In this document: piece by piece, positions 43,728 to 45,986 of the stretch
Layout: each line of letters opens with the position of its first letter
Numbering within the stretch: position 1 is the stretch's first letter
Origin: Thermococcus siculi
GTDB taxonomy: Archaea > Methanobacteriota_B > Thermococci > Thermococcales > Thermococcaceae
NCBI RefSeq assembly: GCF_002214505.1
Contig: NZ_CP015103.1
Location: forward strand, 1,798,001 to 1,862,000
Length of the DNA: 64,000 nt
Direction of reading: 5' to 3'
Notes under the pieces: generated by a model
What the model was told of the DNA's origin: nothing
The model's database searches: none
What the model saw: the letters and a program-made list of their open reading frames with translations, nothing else
Position numbers and translations under genes: made by a program

Positions 43728-43804
<77 letters not shown>

Positions 43805-43878: not shown

Positions 43879-44157
43879 CTATATCCCTCTTCTCCAAGTC
43901 AAATCTTTGACTTTTATGAAATCTACCAAGAGAACCTCAACAAAATCTCCCTCTTGGATATTCAGATGTTATCTCAACCCTAAAGGGATTGTTAATCTGT
44001 CATGAAGTGTTAATTGATCCCAAAACAACCCTCTACCTTCAGGAGTGCGGACGACGAGGAGGACTATGTCATTCTTATCTAAACCGAAGTAATCTCTTTC
44101 ATTGCTTGGGATTTCCATCCTTCCGTTCTTGTAGGCCTGTGCGTGAAATTTCACCAA
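43879..44157 (-). pseudogene. Double AbrB-domain regulator with in-frame stop
   Basis: The open frame 44157-43969 encodes an AbrB/SpoVT-type domain (VKFHAQAYKNGRMEIPSNER) and the start of a second one (DRLTIPLGLR), then TAA. Reading on past that TAA gives HLNIQEGDFVEVLLVDFIKV, the expected rest of the second domain, before a TAG at 43879. One nonsense change therefore interrupts a two-domain protein of about 92 residues. The start is probably TTG at 44157 after AGGTGA; a GTG at 44169 is also possible. AbrB proteins act as antitoxins or regulators. Readthrough, or function of the short form, is not excluded. Confidence 0.65.
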
Positions 44158-44210
44158 TGGCTCAATCACCTAGTGTCTTTCTCCCGGTTGGTCATTGGCT
44201 CCTCTCTTTT

Positions 44211-44232: not shown

Positions 44233-44432
44233 CAATGACTCTACTTATCCTCACTTATGTATGACAATATCTTATTTGTGCTTACAGGGGTTATCGTTAA
44301 GCGACTAATTCATTATTATGGCATAGCTAGCGAGCCAAAGAAGTAAACTTCCACTACTGAAAACGAGCATAAAGATTACGGACGGAAATTATTTAAATGC
44401 ATGTTAGATTTTTCAGAGAGCGGGGGAGTGTA

Positions 44433-45227
44433 ATGAGCAAACCACACAGCGTTTGGCTACCCTCATATGGGAGAGTTATGGTTGAAGTTATGAATGAGGA
44501 CCATGTGGACATGATGGAAAAGTTTGACGCAGGATCTAACGGAGAAGAACAAACCAAATTTGCTAGAGAAAATGCATGGAACTTCCATAGTCATTGTTTG
44601 GCTACTGTTTTTGTTGTACATGATGACATTAAGATTATCTCCTATTTTACATTATCTCCCTTTATCATCAGGTTAAAACCAGAAAATTCCCTTCTAGATT
44701 TTGATGATGAAGTTATTGACAAACTTGAAACGTGTGCTGAACAATATGATGAACTCAAAGACCCTGTTCAGCGTATTGTCCAAGGGGTTAACAGATTTAG
44801 ACAGACAAAACATATCCTTGAGAATATTAGAGAGGTATTGAAAAACAATCTTACAATGGACATACACTACTCATCTGTACCATCTATCCTTCTTGGTCAA
44901 TTTGGCCTTCAAAAAGAGTACCGTTATAAAGCCTTAAAAGAAAGATTTGCAGATAAGGATATTAATAATCTTGGAGGAGAGATTTTAGAGAGAATTATAA
45001 TCCCTTATGCTATACGATATGGTGCGGAGATTGGGGGCATTGGTCTATCCTTACACGCAAATAAAACCGTTGCAAAGAAGTTCTATTTAAATCCTGAGAA
45101 AAACCCTCTTGCGGAGGACTTTTATGTGGTATCCTTTGGAGGAACATATGAATTACTATATCCTTTTGTTGATGATGTAATTGGTCTTAGGAAGTGGCTT
45201 TTAGGGAATGACACAAGAGAGAAATAA
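44433..45227 (+). CDS. TacT-like GNAT acetyltransferase toxin candidate
   Basis: A 264-residue protein that follows the layout of type II GNAT toxins: FDAGSNGEEQ (like the FxCGxxxLD region), ATVFVV and IISYFTLSP strands, then SILLGQFGLQKEY, the acetyl-CoA loop NNLGGEIL, and GIGLSLHANKTVAKKFY. Such toxins acetylate the amino group of charged tRNA and stop translation. It carries about 70 extra residues between the second strand group and ILLGQ. Start ATG 44433 after GGGGGAG; a TATA box is near 44392. No antitoxin lies upstream in the usual place; a 49-residue gene converges from the right. The sequence is clearly AT-rich. Confidence 0.7.
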   Translation: MSKPHSVWLPSYGRVMVEVMNEDHVDMMEKFDAGSNGEEQTKFARENAWNFHSHCLATVFVVHDDIKIISYFTLSPFIIRLKPENSLLDFDDEVIDKLETCAEQYDELKDPVQRIVQGVNRFRQTKHILENIREVLKNNLTMDIHYSSVPSILLGQFGLQKEYRYKALKERFADKDINNLGGEILERIIIPYAIRYGAEIGGIGLSLHANKTVAKKFYLNPEKNPLAEDFYVVSFGGTYELLYPFVDDVIGLRKWLLGNDTREK

Positions 45228-45229
45228 CT

Positions 45230-45379
45230 TTAGAATATACTTGGGATCTCTAAAGCCCTCTTAATATTCCTCTCTATCTTTTTTGGATCACGCTTTTTGG
45301 ATTCCTCAAATGCTCTCGCTAAATTCTGGAGCTCTTCAGGAGTCTCTAAGATGAGTTCGTAACCATTAAACTTAGCCAT
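45230..45379 (-). CDS. 49-residue protein, possible antitoxin or regulator
   Basis: A short gene: ATG at 45379, six bases after GGTGAG, and TAA at 45230, three bases from the stop of the convergent GNAT gene. The protein begins MAKFNGYELILETPEELQN and continues as a Lys/Arg/Glu-rich helix (KKRDPKKIERNIKRALEI). I recognise no family. The promoter is clear: TATA box ATTTATATAG (minus strand, 45411-45420), about 30 bases before the start. A six-element array with 10-base phasing begins just upstream of it. Small size, charge, position and elaborate promoter fit an antitoxin or autoregulator. Confidence 0.6.
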   Translation of the reverse strand: MAKFNGYELILETPEELQNLARAFEESKKRDPKKIERNIKRALEIPSIF

Positions 45380-45421
45380 CTTTTCTCACCATAATTTCAT
45401 ACGGAAGAAACTATATAAATG

Positions 45422-45477
45422 TTATGCACAATGCATAACAATTATGCATTATTATGCACTGTTCATAATGATTATGA
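45422..45477. repeat. Array of six TTATGCA-type half-sites phased at 10 bp
   Basis: TTATGCA at 45422, its complement TGCATAA at 45432, TTATGCA at 45442 and 45452, TTCATAA at 45462 and TTATGA at 45472. The spacing is exactly 10 bases each time, so all sites face the same side of the helix. The array abuts the TATA box of the 49-residue gene on its upstream side. Confidence 0.75.
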
Positions 45478-45513
45478 GGGAACTAGTCCGTTATATGTTA
45501 ATTTGAGAACTAA

Positions 45514-45831
45514 TCACTCGGAGAAAAGTTTTAGCTCCTCGTCTGGTGAGAGATCGTCCAGGTGATATTTCGAGAGAGATAAATGCCGGATAATTTCTGC
45601 ACGATCTCCCAACAACTCATTCAACCGGTAAGCTTTGGCAACTATGACTTCTACAATTGAATCCTTTTCAAGATGCATTGCGTCCCTGAGTCCTTTTGGA
45701 ATCGTGATATTCCCCTTGTCGACGAGTCTAGCGATGAACATCCCGCAGAGCACTTCGTCACTGACTTTAGCCTTTATGATTAGTTCAACATAATCTCCAA
45801 CGTCTAAGTCGTGATAGAGTCTGGTGTACAA
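45514..45831 (-). CDS. Double AbrB-domain protein with unclear start
   Basis: The frame from TTG 45831 encodes most of one AbrB-type domain (YHDLDVGDYVELII) and a full second one (FIARLVDKGNITIPKGLRD), then a helical tail (105 residues). The same frame continues upstream to a TAA at 45880 and reads KIHAKVTRGGQFTFP, the missing first strands of domain one, but with no ATG, GTG or TTG. So either the start codon has been lost, a non-standard start such as ATT is used, or the short form is made. GGAGG at 45848-45852 is too far from TTG 45831. It probably is, or was, an antitoxin or regulator. It shares the two-domain plan with the decayed gene at 43879. Confidence 0.6.
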   Translation of the reverse strand: MYTRLYHDLDVGDYVELIIKAKVSDEVLCGMFIARLVDKGNITIPKGLRDAMHLEKDSIVEVIVAKAYRLNELLGDRAEIIRHLSLSKYHLDDLSPDEELKLFSE

Positions 45832-45986
45832 TGGGAAAGTGAACTGACCTCCTCTGGTGACTTTCGCGTGAATTTTGTGTTATCTTCAACTTCTCGGTTT
45901 TCTCCAGCTCTCGCCGGCGAAATATTCTTGTATAAGGGAGTAACATCAGAGTGTGTTTACTTTAAAATCGTGAGGGAGGTCTTGAG

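Follow-up and report, generated by a model that had tools for sequence, protein, structure and literature searches.

A phased array of TTATGCA half-sites, probably an operator, at the promoter of a small gene in a convergent Thermococcus cassette

What might read a run of near-identical 7-bp units that is spaced to the base pair and sits against the promoter of a 49-residue archaeal gene? The question is raised by a short stretch of the 64-kb segment of Thermococcus siculi DNA that we analyzed (hereafter, the window). The original prediction placed six half-sites here, four exact and two degenerate, and we confirmed the coordinates of all six as well as the exact 10-bp step between successive units:

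45422..45428, + strand: half-site R1, TTATGCA (7/7), overlapping the predicted BRE of the 49-aa gene
45432..45438, − strand: half-site R2, TTATGCA (7/7)
45442..45448, + strand: half-site R3, TTATGCA (7/7)
45452..45458, + strand: half-site R4, TTATGCA (7/7); the corresponding unit in G015 is in − orientation
45462..45468, − strand: half-site R5, degenerate, TTCATAA on the + strand (6/7)
45472..45478, + strand: half-site R6, degenerate, TTATGAG (5/7)

The surrounding island is AT-rich, as had been claimed (≈35–44% GC versus 56–58% outside), and is preceded by a tRNA-Arg(TCT) gene at 43728-43804.

Within the window, the exact word TTATGCA occurs four times, each time inside the array, and the four-unit pattern has a single match, with none in 100 shuffles. 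To avoid picking a word after having seen the array, we also used a motif-blind scan that takes the best 7-mer, in either orientation, over six units at a fixed period. At period 10, the array scored 39 of 42 and the best of 40 dinucleotide shuffles 33; the maxima for periods 7–9 and 11–14 were 31–32 and fell at other places. The units are mixed in orientation (+ − + + − +). Although the spacing is exact, 10.0 bp per step drifts slightly against the ≈10.5 bp of a helical turn, so the earlier statement that every copy lies on one face of the DNA holds approximately.

The gene next to the array and its predicted TATA box are placed as follows:

45230..45379, − strand: 49-aa gene, candidate antitoxin, from a family of eight in Thermococcus with no known domain
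45412..45419, − strand: predicted TATA box of the 49-aa gene, TTTATATA, in the 10-bp register of the array and conserved in relatives

The array does lie directly behind this TATA box, as originally described: the box precedes the array by one unit, in register with it, and a motif-blind scan begun at 45412, with the TATA box as the first unit, also scores 39. A GGTGAG ribosome site lies in the gene's short leader. It is found in 8 of 94 Thermococcaceae genomes, with its reading frame open in all eight, and a wider search of 115 genomes of the phylum added no further copies.

Alignment with other Thermococcales bears out the phasing, which is kept in two relatives; of the two conditions under which the original prediction would have been refuted, loss of phasing in relatives therefore does not hold. 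The array occurs at the same place in G012, which we take to be T. kodakarensis KOD1, and in G015, while the remaining five of the eight copies of the 49-aa gene are without it. The promoter stretch matches G012 at 75% over 132 bases and G015 at 71% over 118 bases; in G028, the match stops at the first half-site. Read in register, the units run + − + − − + in G015 and + − + − followed by a degenerate unit in G012, so that copies differ in number by exactly one 10-bp unit with the register kept. This one-unit difference in G012 also breaks the frame of a short ORF spanning the array (45419-45565), which we rejected. The motif-blind scan ranks the array first in each of the 14-kb loci of G012 and G015; the remaining five loci gave nothing. 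In a hand alignment of the three sequences, a small sample, 26 of 42 half-site columns are invariant versus 4 of 18 spacer columns (Fisher p = 0.005). Between the window and G012, the noncoding stretch is 75% identical and the DNA coding for the 49-aa protein 68%. Similarity to the array-less copies ends at the BRE, which looks like a junction of the cassette with other DNA.

Elsewhere in the 94 genomes, the triple unit yields only scattered matches with three mismatches, a scarcity that would suit a regulator with a single target promoter. Palindromes with at most one mismatch are present in 17 of the 94 genomes, but nearly all the loci that we read lie inside genes, and at two mismatches the counts about equal those of the control; for these reasons we rejected a wider palindrome regulon. 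Separately, G034 carries a near-perfect palindrome, ATATGCACGTTGCATAA, at the center of L039, just upstream of a small predicted regulator gene that looks ArsR-like by eye.

Two features of the locus were absent from the original prediction, a convergent acetyltransferase partner and a second promoter element shared by both genes. The partner gene comprises:

44433..45227, + strand: GNAT-family acetyltransferase, candidate toxin, 264 aa, converging on the 49-aa gene
44389..44397, + strand: TATA-like element of the acetyltransferase gene, TTATTTAAA, found by inspection

In the window, the stops of the two genes are 2 bp apart. The acetyltransferase occurs in the same eight of the 94 genomes as the 49-aa gene, with an additional fragment in G048, and at all eight loci the pair is convergent and not one co-directional operon. 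Relatives of the enzyme give weak Pfam Acetyltransf_1/_7 matches, below cutoff, and a profile of seven acetyltransferases compared with the PDB finds the GNAT proteins 7f37 (3.6e-6) and KacT (5zgn; E = 2.5e-4). This points to a relationship with the GNAT toxins KacT, TacT, and AtaT, and it makes a toxin role a candidate one.

Several copies of the enzyme appear damaged. Compared with its relatives, the window protein carries extra segments, one of them inside the RGxGxGG acetyl-CoA motif, and given these insertions it is perhaps inactive. A structure model of the acetyltransferase was too poor to use (pLDDT 43). The G011 gene is in two pieces, with a 436-aa transposase-like gene between them (L054:7618-8928), and the G012 gene has its N-terminal part cut off by a stop or frameshift. 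In a tree of the acetyltransferases, the array-bearing copies do not form one clade, and that of the window sits on a long branch. Decay of the enzyme alongside a kept small gene would fit a toxin–antitoxin pair, and the pair, which occupies several different neighborhoods, resembles a mobile toxin–antitoxin cassette. PADLOC and NCBIfam gave no useful matches, and a search for viral or plasmid relatives of the array, the 49-aa protein, or the acetyltransferase returned a PHROG acetyltransferase profile as its sole match.

AbrB-like genes also neighbor the pair in some genomes. Those of the window, at 45514-45891 and 43894-44172, seem disrupted, with an apparent frameshift relative to L049:3384-3767 in one case and stops inside the match in the other. 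In G012, four such genes lie around the cassette (L049:3384-8502), two of them adjacent and alike, which suggests local amplification.

The second promoter element, which we call the CGG box, is found at both ends of the pair:

45399..45410, − strand: CGG box at the 49-aa promoter, TTTCTTCCGTAT, directly downstream of the TATA box
44376..44387, + strand: CGG box at the acetyltransferase promoter, TTACGGACGGAA (12/12), followed directly by the TATA-like element

A box like TTCCGTCCGTAA, the G028 version at the 49-aa promoter, is present in all eight loci, where it immediately precedes the TATA element of the acetyltransferase gene and immediately follows the TATA box of the 49-aa gene. It scores 9–12 of 12; in random 90-bp stretches of the window, scores of at least 9 arise in ≈6% and at least 10 in ≈0.4%. 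Because the CGG box is universal and near-fixed in position at both promoters, it makes a better candidate than the array for the operator through which the cassette would regulate itself. With five of the eight gene copies doing without it, the array is dispensable for the cassette and may be an added layer on top of the CGG box.

From the array, its register and conservation, the constant gene pairing, and the shared CGG box, we infer that the array is probably a real operator within a mobile convergent cassette, at which a small dimeric regulator would bind cooperatively and control access of TFB and TBP. Cooperative binding of a small regulator along one face, as the original prediction had it, is the best available reading of the sequence and is partly supported by it. 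Each 7-bp half-site would be bound by one small dimeric regulator in either orientation, a tolerance that we attribute to the nearly palindromic core ATGCAT. Neighboring dimers, 10 bp apart and roughly on one face of the DNA, would then bind cooperatively; this filling of the array by dimers is proposed by analogy with ribbon-helix-helix arrays and archaeal viral regulators. With R1 overlapping the BRE and the TATA box as the following unit in register, a filled array would most likely hinder TFB/TBP access and repress the 49-aa gene, the alternative being activation from upstream.

As a special case of the operator reading, the 49-aa protein, alone or with the acetyltransferase, might bind the array and autoregulate as type II antitoxins do, a tentative assignment that we would not favor. 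Apart from its own gene and the partner gene, no gene was found linked to the array at all three loci that carry it, and an array that is essentially single-target in these genomes fits such a reader. In length and in its predicted strand-helix-helix outline, the protein also resembles a minimal ribbon-helix-helix protein, according to a modest model from two-sequence input (pLDDT 75) with a weak strand and two helices. However, none of its residues distinguishes the genomes with the array from those without it, the sequence is nearly the same in both, and the N-terminal stretch is nearly invariant either way. Glu8 and Glu12 fall on the predicted strand and would face the DNA in a ribbon-helix-helix fold, and the net charge, counted by hand, is near zero or negative, with several copies acidic. 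The eight family members have no match to ribbon-helix-helix/DUF1778 or any other DNA-binding Pfam family at E ≤ 10, nor does the protein match a PDB sequence or a Foldseek structure, and the universal CGG box suits autoregulation better than the array does. A regulator encoded elsewhere is no less likely than the 49-aa protein to read the array. A bolder version, in which the pair is a new archaeal convergent toxin–antitoxin family whose 49-aa antitoxin (or acetyltransferase complex) would polymerize from the array over the BRE and TATA while the CGG box couples the two promoters, we consider doubtful.

It is unlikely that the array is instead a relic of a mobile element, such as plasmid iterons or the end of an element, and does nothing to regulate the 49-aa promoter. 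The integrated plasmid TKV2 of T. kodakarensis spans 320,075-347,187 (PMC6972569). The array of G012 (genome size 2,088,737 bp) lies at 340.5 kb and would fall inside this range if G012 is T. kodakarensis. A further point in favor is that array-less copies lose homology right after the BRE. Yet in each of its three settings, which differ from one another, the array keeps the same register relative to the TATA box and the BRE of the 49-aa gene, and searches of 72,556 plasmid records and of viral contigs returned no match to it.

Thermococcales possess histones, and the array, near 57 bp long with AT-rich steps at 10-bp periodicity, is close to the ≈60 bp of an archaeal histone tetramer. That it positions a histone particle and not a specific regulator is nonetheless very unlikely, as a specific 7-mer is conserved and the spacers are not, and the mixed orientation moves TA and GC steps between units, spoiling any dinucleotide phasing. 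Least probable of all is binding by an AbrB/SpoVT-type neighbor from the island, which the original prediction had put forward and which co-occurrence led us to reject. The cassette does have an AbrB-like gene on either side in the window and four nearby in G012. However, G015 (99% complete), which carries the array, gave no hit to the family at E ≤ 1e-3, and in G028 an intact member accompanies a copy that lacks the array. Of the window genes, 45514-45831 seems frameshifted relative to its homolog in G012, and the second match has stops in it.

The operator reading is in keeping with several described systems. The array has at least three short sites at a fixed spacing that is conserved in relatives, as do cooperative half-site operators of the omega, MetJ, and RelB style. 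ParB of pSM19035 recognizes several 7-bp repeats, tolerates their orientation, and needs at least four contiguous repeats (PMC9499535). The pSM19035 parS/operator heptads, bound by the ribbon-helix-helix protein omega (ParB-pSM), share with our array the 7-bp repeats, mixed orientation, and constant spacing, but their period is a contiguous 7 bp and their role bacterial partition, whereas here the period is 10 bp and the setting an archaeal promoter. At relO of Escherichia coli RelBE, four short repeats place dimers on one face of the DNA, and their spacing is critical (PMC2812701). Short, strictly spaced repeats at a toxin–antitoxin promoter, here a candidate one, are common to both, although relO has 6-bp repeats in one operon promoter, and our locus has a longer array of another word and two convergent genes, each with its own promoter. 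The archaeal viral ribbon-helix-helix regulators SvtR and AvtR are thought to oligomerize along DNA toward the BRE and TATA (PMC5569661); unlike the 10-bp TTATGCA array, their consensus consists of single inverted repeats, and we detected no homology of the 49-aa protein to either. As in the KacT, TacT, and AtaT modules, with their DUF1778 ribbon-helix-helix antitoxins, a GNAT relative is always paired with a small gene; unlike in those modules, the genes are convergent and not in an operon, and the 49-aa partner has no detectable ribbon-helix-helix domain. The open-access literature yielded no TTATGCA operator of Thermococcales.

If real, the array would be an archaeal operator that is tolerant of orientation yet strict in phase and is built onto a BRE/TATA promoter, in a group of organisms with working genetics and with one copy apparently in T. 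kodakarensis. The locus further suggests an acetyltransferase cassette, convergent and so far undescribed, that travels from one Thermococcus genome to another.
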